This document shows, one piece after another, positions 10,025 through 29,638 of a DNA stretch of 35,896 bases (positions are counted from its first letter, which is position 1; every line of letters begins with the position of its first letter). The stretch lies in NCBI GenBank assembly GCA_948329525.1, contig CAOJBM010000009.1:1-35896 (forward strand), read 5' to 3'. The translations under genes and the position numbers were made by a program. Source of the stretch: an uncultured Mycoplasmatota bacterium (GTDB lineage: Bacteria > Bacillota_I > Bacilli_A > RF39 > UBA660). The notes under the pieces were generated by a model, which was given only the letters and a program-made list of their open reading frames with translations, was not told the origin of the DNA and ran no database searches.

Positions 10025-11600
10025 TTTGAGTTTCCGTATTTTTAAATTTAATCCACTATAAACTAAAAATTTTATTAGACATGTCAAATAAATTGACTAA
10101 CTTAAATAAATTATTACATCTAAAAATTACATTGATTTTTTTATCAATTTTTATAATATTACTTTACACTATAATTTTATCTATATTTCCAAACTTAATT
10201 GAGTTTCTAATATCTCTTCTTTAATCTTTCTTTTAAAATAACATTTTATACCTTTCTGGGATCGCCGTAATATAGTATGTATTCCTATTGCAAATTGTGT
10301 TATCCATACTCCTACTTTCTGCCGTAATGATGCACTTTCTTCTATTATTTTTATGCTTAATAACCTGTTGTTCATTTCTTCTGTTAAATTAACTATTAAT
10401 AATATCAATAATTCAAATATATTAGTTAAATTGTTTAGCAAAGTTAGGTTTCTTACTCTCATATCTTCATAATTATATTCTGTTTTTATTGATCTATGAA
10501 ATGTTTCAATTCGCCATCTATCTAGATATATTCTTACTAATTTTATTGCGTCTTTACTTTCTTTTATTTCTCTATTGGTTAATAATATAAATTTCTCTTT
10601 TTTTCCTAATCCATATACAAATATTAATGTATATGTTCTATTATCTGCTGGTAATGTTGCTTTTGTATAAGACACATATACATCTTTTTCTTCTACTTCA
10701 AACTTTAAATGCATCTTTATTTTTCCTTTTCGACTGTTGTATGCGTCATATAATTTTCTTTTCACTTTCTTAAATATAAAATTTCTATTATCTTTTAATC
10801 TTACTAATATATCATCTCCACCTTTTAAAACATAATCAAATAATTTTTGATCGTCATATCCACGATCAAATACCATTAACGATGTTTTTCCTACACATTT
10901 TCTTACTGCATCTATACTTTTATATGTTTCATCATTTGTACTTTTAAATCCTTTGCTTTTACAAGAATATACTTTACTATATACTGGCATTGGTTGTTTT
11001 GCATTCTTAGATAGTACTACAGCATTACACATATGATATCCTGGTACATATGTATCTTTTATAGCACTTGCATCTCTTACAATATCTAAGTCCTCAAATT
11101 TCTTCCCATATATTTTTGCTATATCACTATCATCAAATATGGATATTACTTCATTTGATAACATTGTTTTTATATAACTATATTTATTTTTATTTATGAT
11201 TTCTTGTTTATCAAACGATTCTAAATGTAAACACAATCTTTCTATTGTATTATTTAATTTTATATCCTCGTGTAATTCTCTTGCTACGTTAGATATTTTT
11301 ATATCTTTACTAGCACCTAGGCCATAAATCATACCACAAATAAATTTTTGATCTGTCTTTTTTAGACCATTTGACATGATTTTTGAAAATTTGACAATTT
11401 CTCGTTTCATTTCATTCGTATTTGATGTAAAATAATTCATAAGGAAACACCTCCATAATTGTTTTTAATAAATTATTTTATTACAACTACATTTTATCAA
11501 AAACAGGAGATAATTTCCTTATTTTTAGTTAAAAAACTGAAAAAGTTATCAACACTCTTTCAGTTTTTAATTTTAGTTGTCATTTTTACGGAAACTCAAA
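10025..11600 (-). mobile_element. Complete IS4-family insertion sequence with perfect ends and target duplication
   Basis: Perfect terminal inverted repeats TTTGAGTTTCCGTA (10025-10038) and its complement (11587-11600) bound a 1576-bp element with one transposase gene. An 8-bp direct repeat TAAGATAA flanks it (10017-10024 and 11601-11608). If the IR is drawn one base longer, the duplication becomes AAGATA. An intact gene, perfect ends and a perfect duplication point to a recent insertion. A 7-8 bp duplication fits some IS4 subgroups (for example ISPepr1-like). The 142 bp between the left end and the transposase stop, and the 146 bp between its start and the right end, hold no other gene. Confidence 0.9.
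10181..11440 (-). CDS. IS4-family DDE transposase
   Basis: The 419-residue DDE transposase has its acidic residues in IFDDSDIAKIYG (first D, about 103), SLMVFDRGYDD (second D, about 192) and YLDRWRIETFHRSIK (E312). The last stretch is the Y-R-E-K signature of the IS4 family. An insertion of beta-rich sequence lies between the second D and the E, as is usual in this family. The frame is intact and of normal length, with GGAGGTG upstream of the ATG. It lies inside an element with perfect inverted repeats, so it is probably active. Confidence 0.95.
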   Translation of the reverse strand: MNYFTSNTNEMKREIVKFSKIMSNGLKKTDQKFICGMIYGLGASKDIKISNVARELHEDIKLNNTIERLCLHLESFDKQEIINKNKYSYIKTMLSNEVISIFDDSDIAKIYGKKFEDLDIVRDASAIKDTYVPGYHMCNAVVLSKNAKQPMPVYSKVYSCKSKGFKSTNDETYKSIDAVRKCVGKTSLMVFDRGYDDQKLFDYVLKGGDDILVRLKDNRNFIFKKVKRKLYDAYNSRKGKIKMHLKFEVEEKDVYVSYTKATLPADNRTYTLIFVYGLGKKEKFILLTNREIKESKDAIKLVRIYLDRWRIETFHRSIKTEYNYEDMRVRNLTLLNNLTNIFELLILLIVNLTEEMNNRLLSIKIIEESASLRQKVGVWITQFAIGIHTILRRSQKGIKCYFKRKIKEEILETQLSLEI

Positions 11601-15389: not shown

Positions 15390-16296
15390 CTATTTTACAT
15401 TAAGAATTTCTTTAACTTGTTTAATGGATAAATTAGTACTTTTAGAAATTAGATTTAATGTAGCTCCATTTTTGAATAATGACTTAATCATATCAATCTT
15501 AGTTTTCTCTTCACCTTGTTTAATACCTTGTTCTATCCCATCTTGATACCATTGCTCATTACTTGCTTTTTCATAATCATATGCTTCCCCAAAAATTGGT
15601 TCTTTTATTACTTCTTTTGCTTCCTCAATATACTCTCTCACTATGGCCACCTTTTTCATTATTTTATCTAACTTCTCTATATCTCTTTCGACTAAAGAAT
15701 AGGTATATTTCTCTAATTCCGTTAAACTTTCTATGCCTTTAGTGTAACATTTTTCTAATAAATTGGGAAGTACTACATTTATAATTACAATCTTTTTTGT
15801 TAAAACTATTCCTTCTTTATTTCTTATATAAAACACATCTATTATTTTTTTACTCTCTTTATATGCAAAATTATTAAAATTTATCTGGAAAACCATATTA
15901 AAATCATATTCTTCTCCACTAATATTTTGATAATATAACTTAAATACATATCCTAAATTTCTTTCATATGTTTTTATATCTTTATTATTATTTACCTCAA
16001 TATTTATATACGCTCCATTTATCTTAGCAACAAAATCACTTCTTTCTCCTTTAGCATTTCTTCTCTTTTTTGTTAACTCATTAGTTATTAATTTCATATT
16101 CCTAAGTAATTCTTCATATTTTAACTTTGTTAACAATGAATAAGCTGAATACTTTATTCTTTTTTCAGTTTGAAACATTGTTTTAAACATTGTATCCGAT
16201 ACTATTGATGGTTTATCTTTATACTTTGTAATGTAAATCACTTAAAGATATTACTTTTTCAGCATTTACTTCAACTATAAGTTCTTCTTTTAGCAT
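15390..16296 (-). pseudogene. Frameshifted PD-(D/E)XK (Rpn-type) transposase-like nuclease
   Basis: The main frame (15390-16241) encodes about 283 residues of an Rpn/PD-(D/E)XK transposase-family protein. It contains PSIVSDTMFKTMFQTEKRIK, the nuclease core SDFVAKINGAYINIEVNNNK (D...E-x-N), and a C-terminal tail with EQGIKQGEEKTK and a small helix-turn-helix-like end. The natural start seems to be the ATG at 16296, which has GAGG 8 nt upstream. It reads MLKEELIVEVNAEKVISLSD but is in another frame and stops at 16219. The GTG at 16241 has no binding site and its frame is blocked by TAA just upstream. A single-nucleotide indel near 16219-16241 would join the two. Such proteins promote RecA-independent recombination in other bacteria. 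Confidence 0.75.
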
Positions 16297-25454: not shown

Positions 25455-27170
25455 CTATTTAGAAAATTCTTTTTCACCAATTCTTTGGTCGGGAAATAAC
25501 TCATAAATAGTTGGATAATAATTTACTTTCTTTTCTTCTAACATAATATCTCCTTGATAATTTATAGGTATGTTTTTATATTTTTCTAAATCAATACTAT
25601 CAAAACTGATCTCTTTTCCTTGACAATAAAACTTTACTTCATTTTCTTCTAAAAAATCTGAAGTAAAATCATTTATACTTCCAACTTTTACGTTATCTTT
25701 AAATAATATATATAATATTTCACTATTAGGATTTTCAATATCATTTAATGCATCTAAAACAGGAATATTCGATACGGAATAAGTAGGCCAAAAATTAAAA
25801 TTTTGCTCTTTTGTATAAGGTATCTCTTTTTCAATTAAATCACTATTAAAATAATATCTACTATGCATTTGTCCATTACCTAGTAAACAGTTTATAAAAG
25901 GATTTGTTTTCATATCTTCTCCATACATATTAGTATACATTTCAGATAATAACGCTGTTATGTCTGTATCTAAATTTTCTATTTGATCACTTCCTGGTTT
26001 TTCTTTTAATAAATCAATTAATTTGTTGGCTTTCTCTTCTTCTAAATTGGCTTTTATAGCATTAACTAAGTCTGTTTCATCACCACTAAAACATAATTTC
26101 CATATTGGTTTTGGTCCAATCATTTCCATTAATATTTTTGTATTTTTCACAGGCTCACGATATGCATTATTTACACACTTAGCATCATACTCACAAGATA
26201 TAATTTCAGCACTTCCCTCTATTATATATCTACATTCATGTTCTACTTGCAAAAGGTGAAGATATTCATGAACTTTATCATCATACCTATTCTCTTTACC
26301 AAAATATGTATTAACATATAACTTATCAGGTGTAAGTGGAGAATAAAAAGCAGCCTCTACACCTACATATCCATTAGTATTTTCGTCCTTTTTTGGTTCT
26401 GCATAATAATAGAAAACTTGTAATTCGTTAAATTTTAATGGAATTAATACATTCATATTAGTATTTTCATAATATGGTATAATATCTTCTAATAATTTTG
26501 TATTATTTACCATTTCCTTTTCTTCTTCTGTTAGTTTATCATTATTATCAATATAAAATTGAATTTGCTCTAAAGTAACAATATCATTACTAGGAAGAGT
26601 TATTTCTTCAGCAGAGTTTTCACTTACTGTAGAATTTTCACTTATTGTGGAGTTTTCACTTATTGTAGTTACTTCGATAAAATTTTCGCTTATTGTGGAG
26701 TTTTCGCTTATTGTATTAAAATTGCTATTATTTGATATTACTGAACTATAAGTTGTTCTACTTGTTATAATAATAGAACTCGCAACTATTGAGCAAAAAA
26801 AGATTGAACTAATTATAAGAGTAGAATTTTTTAGTTTAATTTTTTTCACTTTATCTCTAGATTTTTCTAAAATAAAATCTTTATATATTAGAGCATCTTC
26901 CCCATTATAAAGCCAAGTAGCTTCTATGTCTTCTTTGCTATTTTTAAAATAGTGTTTTAAGCCTGAAATATTATCTAAATAAACATCATAATCATTTTCT
27001 TTTCCTAAATAACTTTTATCATCACCTAATTTAAGTAAGTTAATAATATTAACTTCTTCTATTGTTAATGGAGTTACTACTCCATTTTGAACATTAAAAC
27101 CTTTAATCTTAGTATCTTCAAATTTTATATAACTTTCTTTTTTATTTTGTTTTATTATTATATCAAACAC
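25455..27170 (-). CDS. Membrane-anchored HEYLH zincin-like metallopeptidase, copy 1
   Basis: The 571-residue protein has an N-terminal domain of about 110 residues (FDIIIKQNKKESYIKFED...), presumably cytosolic because KSRDKVKKIKLK precedes the single membrane helix (about 116-137). A Ser/Asn/Glu repeat linker (153-187) follows, then a large extracellular domain with DDKVHEYLHLLQVEHE: His301, Glu302 and His305 form HExxH. EGSAEIIS (Glu318/Glu322) follows and could supply the third zinc ligand. I do not recognise a named family; zinc peptidase is inferred from these motifs. GTG at 27170 is chosen because GAGG lies 8 nt upstream and the paralogue at 27926-29566 starts at the matching residue. 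The two proteins align almost from end to end. Confidence 0.72.
   Translation of the reverse strand: MFDIIIKQNKKESYIKFEDTKIKGFNVQNGVVTPLTIEEVNIINLLKLGDDKSYLGKENDYDVYLDNISGLKHYFKNSKEDIEATWLYNGEDALIYKDFILEKSRDKVKKIKLKNSTLIISSIFFCSIVASSIIITSRTTYSSVISNNSNFNTISENSTISENFIEVTTISENSTISENSTVSENSAEEITLPSNDIVTLEQIQFYIDNNDKLTEEEKEMVNNTKLLEDIIPYYENTNMNVLIPLKFNELQVFYYYAEPKKDENTNGYVGVEAAFYSPLTPDKLYVNTYFGKENRYDDKVHEYLHLLQVEHECRYIIEGSAEIISCEYDAKCVNNAYREPVKNTKILMEMIGPKPIWKLCFSGDETDLVNAIKANLEEEKANKLIDLLKEKPGSDQIENLDTDITALLSEMYTNMYGEDMKTNPFINCLLGNGQMHSRYYFNSDLIEKEIPYTKEQNFNFWPTYSVSNIPVLDALNDIENPNSEILYILFKDNVKVGSINDFTSDFLEENEVKFYCQGKEISFDSIDLEKYKNIPINYQGDIMLEEKKVNYYPTIYELFPDQRIGEKEFSK
26616..26716 (-). repeat. 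In-frame tandem repeat encoding TISENS units
   Basis: Related 15-21 nt units (cttattgtggagttttc-like on the plus strand) encode TISENST, TISENF, TISENST, TISENST and TVSENS between the membrane helix and the catalytic domain. They form a flexible extracellular stalk that is absent from the paralogue, and are likely to vary in number by slippage. Confidence 0.75.
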
Positions 27171-27193
27171 TAATAACACCTCTATTTTATTTT

Positions 27194-27238
27194 ATTATAC
27201 TACATATTTACATTTTTAGAAAAAATACTATGTCAACA
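27194..27238 (-). promoter_or_regulatory. Promoter region of zincin copy 1 with conserved direct repeat
   Basis: On the minus strand TATAAT lies at 27194-27199, with TGTAAATATG (27203-27212) and TGTTGACATA (27229-27238) upstream. The start-to-start distance of the two decamers is 26 nt. The same layout, base for base, occurs before zincin copy 2. TTGACA is 31 nt from TATAAT and so cannot be its -35; the decamers look like regulator sites. Confidence 0.55.
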
Positions 27239-27305
27239 GTTGTCTAGTAAGTGGCATTATTAGAAAATATATGCTATTCTTTTATTATAGTAAGGAAGAA
27301 TTTAT

Positions 27306-27512
27306 ATGGAAGATAAAAAGAAAGTAATTGGAAACGAAACAAAAACAATTAATAATCTTGAAATAGCAAAAGAAGAATATATAAATTTGTTATCAAATAC
27401 AACAGAAGAAACATATGAAGAAGAATTAATTGATCAGGTAGAAGCAGCAAGAGAAAAAAATTTATATGAAGAAGATGAAAAAAGATTTAATGATATAGAT
27501 AATTTTACATAA
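27306..27512 (+). CDS. Small acidic protein of unknown function
   Basis: This 68-residue, highly charged, probably helical protein contains TTEETYEEELIDQVEAAREK and ends EEDEKRFNDIDNFT. It has no cysteine, signal peptide or membrane segment. AAGGAAG lies about 9 nt before the ATG. It is divergent from zincin copy 1 and 40 nt upstream of a small membrane protein gene. I do not recognise it; an inhibitor or regulator of the neighbouring membrane proteins is only a positional guess. Confidence 0.6.
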   Translation: MEDKKKVIGNETKTINNLEIAKEEYINLLSNTTEETYEEELIDQVEAAREKNLYEEDEKRFNDIDNFT

Positions 27513-27532
27513 AAGATAATTAGTGCTATACT
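27504..27532 (+). promoter_or_regulatory. Promoter of the small membrane protein
   Basis: TTTACA (27504-27509) and TATACT (27527-27532) are 17 nt apart, with TGC directly before the -10 (extended -10). The -35 overlaps the stop region of the small acidic gene, so the membrane protein can be expressed on its own. Confidence 0.7.
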
Positions 27533-27552
27533 AACATTCAGGAAGTGACTGT

Positions 27553-27906
27553 ATGAAAAAATTCATCTTAACTCATAAATTAGTATTATTTCTTATCCTA
27601 GTAGTAATAGTTTTAACTACCTTACTTTACTTGTCAAATAAACATAAAGTTAACACAATACCAAGTAAAGCCGATTTATTAATTGGAATAGAAAAAACAT
27701 TTAAAAAAATTAATAATTTAGATTGTAAATTTCATAGTCAAGTACATTATAATGAGGACGTTTATAAATATACTTGCCATTTTGATTATGAAATTGAAAA
27801 AGATGATGAGATAATAAGTAATCAAGATTATGAGCAATGTACTATCTGTATGATTCATGATGATAAATGGGATTGCAGTATTAGTAGTAGCAAATGCTTT
27901 AAATAA
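27553..27906 (+). CDS. Small membrane-anchored cysteine-containing protein
   Basis: This 117-residue protein has one N-terminal membrane helix (about 9-27, KLVLFLILVVIVLTTLLYL) and an extracytoplasmic domain. The domain holds six cysteines (LDCKF, YTCHF, QCTICM, WDCSI, KCFK), which probably form disulfides. Its family is unknown to me. AGGAAGTG lies 9 nt before the ATG, and a good promoter and a terminator frame it as an independent unit. It sits on the opposite strand between the two zincin genes, so its domain would face the same compartment as their catalytic domains. Confidence 0.65.
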   Translation: MKKFILTHKLVLFLILVVIVLTTLLYLSNKHKVNTIPSKADLLIGIEKTFKKINNLDCKFHSQVHYNEDVYKYTCHFDYEIEKDDEIISNQDYEQCTICMIHDDKWDCSISSSKCFK

Positions 27907-27929
27907 CACCTAATAAATAGGTGTTTTAT
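27905..27929 (+). terminator. Terminator of the small membrane protein gene
   Basis: AACACCTA (27905-27912) pairs with TAGGTGTT (27918-27925) around a 5-nt loop, followed by TTATTTTG. It overlaps the stop codon and touches the convergent zincin gene. Confidence 0.8.
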
Positions 27930-29566
27930 TTTGTTATAGATGAAGACTTTCCTATTCTTTGGCTTGGAAATGACTCATAAATAGTTGGATAGTAAATATA
28001 TCTTATTCCAGTTTCTACTTCAGGATTTATTCCACCTACCAAGTTAAAAGGAATTCCTTCATATTTAGATAAATCAAAATTATCTTTAGTAAATTCTTCT
28101 CCATGACAATAAAATTTTATTTCATTTTTTTCAAACACATCTTCTTCAATAGCTCTTATGTCATTAAATTGAAGCTGATTTTTGGAAAGCATAAATACAA
28201 TATCAACATCTTTATTATATATATAACTTTTTATGTCAATTTCGGGATTTAAATAATACTCAGAAGAAAAAGCATAAACATACCAAAAAGTATAACCTGA
28301 TGGTAAAGTATTTACTTCTACTGGTCTGTAAGGTTGGTTTTTTTCTATAAAATCACTATTAAAATAATAACGCCTATTCATTTTTCCATTACCAAGTAAA
28401 CAATTTATAAAAGGATTATTTCTCATATTTTCTCCATACATATTTTGATACATTTCAGATAATAAAGTTTCTATACTTTTATCTAAGTTTTTTATTTTTG
28501 ATTTAGTTGGTTTTTCTTTTAATAAACTAATTAATTCATTAGCTTTTTCTTCCTCGAGATTTTCTCTTATAATATTTACTAAATCAGTATCATCACCGCT
28601 AAAATTTAACTTCCATATTGGAACTGGTCCCACAATTTCCATTAATATTTTTGTATTTTTAACAGCAATTTCATAAGTATCGATTGTACATTTATCATCG
28701 TATTCAGAAGATATTATTTCTGCACTTGCTTCTTTTATATATTTATATTCATGAGCTATTTGCAAAAGATGAATATATTCATGAACTTTATCATCATATC
28801 TATCCTCATTATCATAATAAGTATTAAGAAATATTGCATTAGGTTTAGTTTCATTGTAGTAAGCTCGTGTAGAATTTTTTTCTTTATAATACTCTTCAAA
28901 CTGCAAATCCGCATATTTTAAAGGTATTAAAATATTCATATTAGTATTTTCATAATATGGCACTACATCTTCGAGTAGCTTTTCATTATAAAACATTACT
29001 TTTTCTTCTTCTGTTAAATTCTCATTTTCTTTTATATAACTTTCTATCTGTTCAATCGTTACACCATCATTATATTCTTTAGAAAGTGTTACATTAACTT
29101 CTGATATCTTATATTTTATATTATAAATAGTCATATCTGGGTCAAGAAGAAATGAAATTGATAAAGCAATAAATGCACCAGCTATATATCCTCTAAATAT
29201 ACTTTTAGTAATAATAGCAATCTTCTCTTTTAAATTAAAGGTTTTAACCTCATCTTCATCTGTAGATTTATCACCACTATAAAGCAAGGCATCTTCTCCA
29301 TTATGTTCCCAAGTAGCATTAGCGTCTTCCACTCCATCTTTAAAATAATGTTTTAAACCTGATTTGTTATCTAAATAAACATCGTATTCATCATCTTTTC
29401 CTAAATACTTTCTATCATCACTTAGTTTAAGCAAGTTAATACTATTAACTTCTTTTATTGTTAATGGAGTTATAACTCCATTTTGAGCATTAAATCCCTC
29501 AAGCTTATTATCATTTAGCTTAATATAACTTTCCTTTTTTCCATTTTTTATAATAATGTCAAACAT
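27926..29566 (-). CDS. Membrane-anchored HEYIH zincin-like metallopeptidase, copy 2
   Basis: The 546-residue paralogue of the protein at 25455-27170 has the same order of parts. It comprises an N-terminal cytosolic domain (FDIIIKNGKKESYIKLND...), a basic stretch, one membrane helix (about 121-141) and an extracellular domain with VHEYIHLLQIAHE. His262, Glu263 and His266 form HExxH, with EASAEIIS following. Shared blocks outside the motif include PYYENTNMN, KNTKILME, NPFINCLLGNG and YYPTIYE near the C-terminus, so the whole ectodomain is conserved, not just the zinc site. It lacks the TISENS stalk. GAGGTGA precedes the ATG. Zinc peptidase activity is inferred; the substrate is unknown. Confidence 0.72.
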   Translation of the reverse strand: MFDIIIKNGKKESYIKLNDNKLEGFNAQNGVITPLTIKEVNSINLLKLSDDRKYLGKDDEYDVYLDNKSGLKHYFKDGVEDANATWEHNGEDALLYSGDKSTDEDEVKTFNLKEKIAIITKSIFRGYIAGAFIALSISFLLDPDMTIYNIKYKISEVNVTLSKEYNDGVTIEQIESYIKENENLTEEEKVMFYNEKLLEDVVPYYENTNMNILIPLKYADLQFEEYYKEKNSTRAYYNETKPNAIFLNTYYDNEDRYDDKVHEYIHLLQIAHEYKYIKEASAEIISSEYDDKCTIDTYEIAVKNTKILMEIVGPVPIWKLNFSGDDTDLVNIIRENLEEEKANELISLLKEKPTKSKIKNLDKSIETLLSEMYQNMYGENMRNNPFINCLLGNGKMNRRYYFNSDFIEKNQPYRPVEVNTLPSGYTFWYVYAFSSEYYLNPEIDIKSYIYNKDVDIVFMLSKNQLQFNDIRAIEEDVFEKNEIKFYCHGEEFTKDNFDLSKYEGIPFNLVGGINPEVETGIRYIYYPTIYESFPSQRIGKSSSITK

Positions 29567-29593: not shown

Positions 29594-29638
29594 ATTATAA
29601 CACATGTTTACAATTTCAAAAAAACAAGTATGTCAACA
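29594..29638 (-). promoter_or_regulatory. Promoter region of zincin copy 2 with conserved direct repeat
   Basis: TATAAT (29594-29599), TGTAAACATG (29603-29612) and TGTTGACATA (29629-29638) are placed exactly as in front of copy 1. Here TGTTATAAT also makes an extended -10. The match across non-coding DNA suggests common regulation. Confidence 0.6.

Follow-up and report, generated by a model that had tools for sequence, protein, structure and literature searches.

Gluzincins such as thermolysin (M4), aminopeptidase M1 and the M48/M56 peptidases carry an HExxH helix that comes after strands and is followed by a helix with E-x-x-x-E/D, for which the thermolysin counterpart is Glu166/Asp170. The same order is predicted for two paralogous proteins, zincin A and zincin B, encoded in a 35,896-nucleotide stretch of DNA (the window, to whose full length all coordinates refer) from an uncultured Mycoplasmatota bacterium (assembly GCA_948329525.1, contig CAOJBM010000009.1). 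Together with two small genes, S1 and S2, they make up the four open reading frames (ORFs) of positions 25455-29566, which were confirmed where an initial annotation had placed them, with A and B collinear on the (-) strand and S1 and S2 between them on the (+) strand. From sequence and model evidence, A and B are probably duplicated, co-regulated, single-pass membrane proteins with the N-terminus inside the cell and a gluzincin-type zinc peptidase core at the surface. The initial proposal of paralogous membrane zincins that belong to no named family is borne out for A and B as putative membrane-anchored zinc peptidases; the two are 55% identical over the full length.

Catalytic signature and membrane topology

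Conservation was assessed across 33 divergent cores, the most distant of them about 16% identical to B. In B numbering, H262, E263, H266 and Y298 do not vary in any of the 33, position 279 holds Glu in 32 cores and Asp in the other, and E288 and one upstream Gly are nearly invariant. A282, at +3 from E279, is also nearly invariant, being present in most family members. Because composition predicts 0.005-0.007 HExxH motifs per protein and because the motif is kept in all 33 divergent homologues, the HEYLH of A and the HEYIH of B recognized in the initial annotation are real signatures and not chance occurrences. The E-x-x-x-E segment is likewise present, as Glu279/Glu283 in B and, when counted from GTG 27179, as Glu321/Glu325 in A, where the initial annotation gave 318/322. 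At the position of E279, distant members read QEGMTEL, EEGLAS, SEGITEL or EEGITSL (EG[LIM][TA]), and EG is the usual signature of gluzincin Glu helices. In the proposed mechanism, zinc would be bound by the two HExxH histidines, His262 and His266, and by Glu279, which lies early in the helix that follows; Glu263 would serve as general base, with Tyr298 as a candidate for the transition-state residue. E288 was rejected as the third ligand, as it lies two and a half turns past E279 on the opposite helix face.

As initially described, A and B are each predicted to have a single membrane helix; it lies near residue 120 and is positively charged on its N-terminal side, and nearly all members with the N-terminal domain (N-domain) share both the helix near residue 120 and the positive charge on the N side. 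This charge bias points to a topology with the N-terminus in and the core out, so that the roughly 400-residue C-terminal part of A and B, containing the putative peptidase core, would lie outside the membrane, where, at the cell surface, it could hydrolyse extracytoplasmic proteins or peptides. Five loci without the N-domain (L035, L040, L083, L091 and L092) encode proteins with a hydrophobic segment close to the N terminus.

The N-domain has five invariant residues (D66, K76, E80, N89 and G90) and is convincing only as a fusion to zincins, the few other matches having E >8e-4; a search for known relatives of the domain gave no match. Identity between A and B is highest in the N-domain (72%), followed by the core (65%), a C-terminal region of about 130 residues that the initial annotation had missed (41%) and the linker (27%). 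The inner end and catalytic core are conserved between A and B, and the outer end is divergent. The paralogues are under purifying selection, with a proportion of nonsynonymous differences (pN) well below that at synonymous sites (pS, 0.475). The cytosolic N-terminal domain could serve as a conserved anchor or regulatory part, while the divergent C-terminal part perhaps sets substrate choice.

Predicted fold and alternative readings

A full-length AlphaFold2 model of B, built from an 18-row alignment, has a mean predicted local distance difference test score (pLDDT) of 76.6, and values exceed 90 over most of the core; modelled alone, the core reaches a pLDDT of 91.2 and a predicted template modelling score (pTM) of 0.90. 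In the core model, whose E114 is B E279, strands 57-61, 70-72 and 79-83 precede the HExxH helix (92-103), which is followed by the Glu helix (110-124) and more helices. We estimated the register from the turn at 269-274, taking 271.5 as its centre. H266 is 5.5 and H262 9.5 residues away on the N-terminal side of this centre, and E279 is 7.5 and E283 11.5 residues away on the C-terminal side; these distances would place E279 level between H266 and H262 and E283 beside H262. In thermolysin, H146/H142 are arranged with E166/D170, the same order as the estimated register gives for H266/H262 and E279/E283. Profile searches gave weak matches to zincins 4l7a and 9urd at the HExxH segment, linked this segment to an MXAN_6640-type protein (L145) and to an M78 protein in L146, and connected the core to shorter relatives with NEGYTDL over 112 columns. 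The helix arrangement, the invariance and the profile links at HExxH together support a zincin fold remote from the solved members.

Several observations weigh against a surface zinc peptidase. Full-length Foldseek searches against the PDB and viral proteins returned nothing significant, and the core alone against the PDB still gave nothing significant, zinc peptidase 1ge6 standing second among the non-significant matches (E 2.8); of the fold anticipated in the initial annotation, the model shows the expected arrangement of the HExxH and Glu helices, with no significant structural counterpart. The core also reaches significance with no Pfam, NCBIfam or PDB zincin. The spacing from HExxH to Glu is 12 residues, below the 18-24 of well-known gluzincins, and the charge rule is the sole argument for the extracellular side of the core. 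Finally, the Asp at the ligand position occurs in the same-genus orthologue of A, at the syntenic locus G024 (L098; CAOJRP010000016.1, from an uncultured Erysipelotrichaceae metagenome-assembled genome, MAG), which also holds the orthologues of S1 and S2.

The absence of a significant Foldseek match to any solved zincin would be expected if HExxH occurred by coincidence in a helical fold of another kind, but this is very improbable given the invariance of the motif, the conserved E/D 13 residues past the second His with Ala at +16, the preceding strands and tight helix turn in the core model, and the matches of this segment to zincins in profile searches. Alternatively, the core may have kept a zincin fold and zinc binding while acting as a binding or structural surface protein with no peptidase activity. 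The replacement of Glu279 by Asp in one orthologue, a second core copy without HExxH in two long relatives and the lack of a match of the fold to a solved peptidase are all compatible with such a protein; however, the general-base Glu of HExxH is never replaced in the 33 divergent members, which an inactive family would not need, and we consider this explanation unlikely, though not negligible. The reading of A and B as zinc peptidases is the one that we prefer.

A further resemblance was noted in B residues about 326-378 (28433-28591, (-) strand), where NLEEEKANELISLLKEKP is similar to the B domain of protein A (NLNEEQRNAFIQSLKDDP). The E value of 0.0015 is summed over repeats, with no single repeat significant, and the likeness is probably a chance helical similarity.

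Lineage distribution of the zincin family

A and B are the sole zincin copies in the source genome. A single-sequence search matched 20 of 291 family-level genomes, and a 21-row profile matched 40 of 385 order-level genomes, spread over 26 of 117 genera and all within the window's own bacterial family. That family also holds 6 of the 7 matches in a class-level sample and 7 of the 9 in a phylum-level sample, the remaining two being short and marginal. The zincin family is thus patchy and essentially restricted to one bacterial family of gut Bacilli. A contig scan with one protein as query gave no match, whereas alignment A2 as query yielded 15 named loci. The relatives that carry a name are MAGs called Bacilli, Erysipelotrichaceae, Tenericutes, Bacillales or Clostridia, and the sample labels of several mention goat, rabbit or the like. 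No relatives were found in the viral contigs and plasmids searched. Scans of Pfam, NCBIfam, PHROGs and PADLOC gave no significant match for A, B, S1 or S2, and the relatives too had no significant Pfam or NCBIfam match, consistent with the first impression that this architecture belongs to no named family. Since the database scans are empty and the matches are confined to one bacterial family, the A/B family is uncatalogued (in Pfam, NCBIfam and, by sequence, the PDB), lineage-restricted and patchy.

Several relatives depart from the common architecture. Zincin genes are split across two or three frames at L086:5964-7569 (-) and L042:6947-8474 (-), possibly as pseudogenes or assembly errors. 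At L044:6742-9219 (-) and L110:78-2912 (+), chains of 825 and 944 amino acids (aa) contain the core twice, the second copy being partial or degenerate and lacking HExxH. The shorter relatives at L142:1408-2277 (-) and L143:1312-2202 (-), of about 290-297 aa and without the N-terminal domain, carry HELLH/HELIH...LNEGYTDL and form another unnamed branch of the superfamily.

Duplication and a shared upstream element

Zincin A groups with the A orthologue with modest support (85/89) and synteny agrees, which places the duplication before the split of the two species. Further tandem zincin pairs are present at L040 and L108. A 43-bp box, TTGACAYA-N12-AAAWTGTAAAYATRTRKTATAAT, precedes the start codons of A, B and both orthologues and occurs twice genome-wide, solely upstream of A and B; it is identical at 34 of 43 positions between the two, compared with about half of synonymous sites. 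An element that is common to both genes, unique in the genome and conserved beyond synonymous sites implies that A and B are co-regulated. The box was rejected as a sigma-70 promoter, the distance between TTGACA and TATAAT being 31 bp, and because of this spacing its upstream part may be a regulator site (candidate operator).

Two small genes between the zincins

The initial description of S1 as a small acidic protein and of S2 as a membrane-anchored protein with six cysteines holds. S2 has one N-terminal membrane helix and Cys at positions 58, 75, 96, 99, 108 and 115, all six of which are kept in its orthologue (78% identity; pN 0.11, pS 0.45); S1 and its orthologue differ with pN 0.23 and pS 0.50. 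As pN is below pS in both comparisons, S1 and S2 are real genes under purifying selection.

The initial annotation had also suggested a protease module in which the cytosolic domain senses or is regulated and the small proteins may be partners or inhibitors. Spelled out, the cytosolic domain would sense a signal, the ectodomain protease would be activated, and S1 and S2 would be its partner or inhibitor. In favour of such a module, the arrangement of S1, S2 and both zincins is preserved between two congeneric species, both small genes are under purifying selection, and the intergenic region from which A and S1 diverge is conserved. Besides the window, however, S1 and S2 are present only at the syntenic G024 locus, and about 35 other zincin loci have no S1 or S2 relatives alongside; their neighbours, by reading, are diverse and we take them to be mostly housekeeping genes (such as era/recO, rlmH/ung, ribosomal genes and enolase). 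No convincing relatives occur elsewhere, and synteny in two congeneric genomes is weak evidence, as the flanking housekeeping genes are syntenic too. The partner or inhibitor role is unsupported since S1 and S2 are missing at all non-syntenic zincin loci examined, an absence that the initial annotation had itself named as a refutation, and we regard the module as unlikely. A wider scheme, in which the uncharacterised cytosolic domain controls an HExxH-x12-E extracytoplasmic gluzincin across the membrane and, in this genus, S1 and S2 tune the pair under the shared promoter element, seems improbable. S1 and S2 are a separately transcribed gene pair, peculiar to the genus, with no demonstrated link to the peptidases. 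Matches to S2 outside the genus were rejected as short and 26-33% identical, some with stops, and weak PADLOC matches (S1 to PycTM, S2 to ThsB) were rejected as noise.

Organization of the locus

The features of the locus are collected in Table 1. The ORF of A as listed spans 25455-27179 (-), from GTG 27179. The second GTG is more probably the start, because its ribosome-binding site, AGAGGTG, is better spaced, at a normal distance, and because it aligns with the start of B, yielding (V/M)FDIIIK beside MFDIIIK. S1 diverges from A and S2 converges on B. For the terminator-like hairpin, one was found against 0.8 expected by chance, and its position is the chief argument for it. Elsewhere in the window, and not adjoining the zincins, are a transposase-like ORF (10181-11440, (-)) and a PD-(D/E)XK/Rpn-type transposase-family ORF (15390-16241, (-)), both assigned by reading.

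Table 1. Positions of the zincin genes, their predicted domains and the neighbouring elements in the window.
Feature	Position	Strand	Remarks
Zincin A	25455..27167	(-)	570 aa from GTG 27167 (probable start); full-length alignment to B and L098 orthologues
A N-terminal domain	26883..27167	(-)	counterpart of B residues 1-95
A membrane helix	26763..26822	(-)	predicted; N-in by positive-inside rule
A zincin core	25815..26558	(-)	aligned counterpart of B core
A HEYLH	26256..26270	(-)	residues 304-308 counted from GTG 27179
A Glu321 (from GTG 27179)	26217..26219	(-)	equivalent of B Glu279
Promoter box upstream of A	27194..27236	(-)	shared, 43 bp; inside divergent A/S1 intergenic region
S1	27306..27512	(+)	small acidic protein, 68 aa, isoelectric point (pI) 4.3; genus-specific
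S2	27553..27906	(+)	membrane-anchored six-Cys protein, 117 aa; genus-specific
Terminator-like hairpin	27905..27925	(+)	between convergent ends of S2 and B
Zincin B	27926..29566	(-)	546 aa; 71-74% identity to same-genus orthologue (G024/L098)
B N-terminal domain	29282..29566	(-)	residues 1-95; predicted cytosolic, beta-rich
B membrane helix	29144..29233	(-)	residues 112-141; predicted N-in by positive-inside rule
B zincin core	28325..29071	(-)	residues 166-414
B HEYIH	28769..28783	(-)	H262, E263, H266
B Glu279	28730..28732	(-)	proposed third zinc ligand, within E-A-S-A-E; from conservation and inferred helix register
Promoter box upstream of B	29594..29636	(-)	shared, 43 bp; TTGACA...TGTAAACATGTGTTATAAT

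Comparison with known peptidase systems

These proteins add an uncatalogued putative surface zinc peptidase family to a surface biology that is almost unknown, that of uncultured gut Bacilli. If active, they would be candidate enzymes with peptides or proteins of the gut interface as their targets. E263, E279 and Y298 are ready test residues, and a shared promoter element is defined.

Several described families resemble the core in part. The closest likeness to the MXAN_6640 family (NF045524) is the alignment of HEYFHAIQ...WFKEAAAEW in L145 with HEYIHLLQ...YIKEASAEI in B, which is limited to about 45 residues; the best value for the family model (E 0.047, one of 33 members) falls short of its 140-bit cut-off. 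The HExxH segment also aligns with the M78 protein in L146, and one of 21 members touches the Peptidase_M78/IrrE-ImmA model (PF06114) at E 0.014, short of a Pfam match; M78 is a small cytosolic domain. No family member matches Peptidase_MA_2 (PF13485); a genome search with this model is uninformative, as it matched nothing, controls included.

Flagellinolysin uses Glu262 as its third ligand, with Ala265 as the 'basement' residue (PMC5595980). This combination of HExxH with a ligand Glu and Ala at +3 (NF033876) is matched by E279 and A282 of B, whereas flagellinolysin has a ligand spacing of 24 and is inserted in flagellin; the best match to its model (E 0.022, one member) lies below the 205-bit cut-off. 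With the gluzincins, A and B share the predicted helix order, the E-x-x-x-E/D and, in distant family members, the EG motif. They differ from them in having no sequence family match, in the several predicted helices after the Glu helix, in the predicted N-in anchor, in an unrecognised conserved N-terminal domain, predicted to be cytosolic, and in an unusually short 12-residue gap between HExxH and the proposed ligand Glu.

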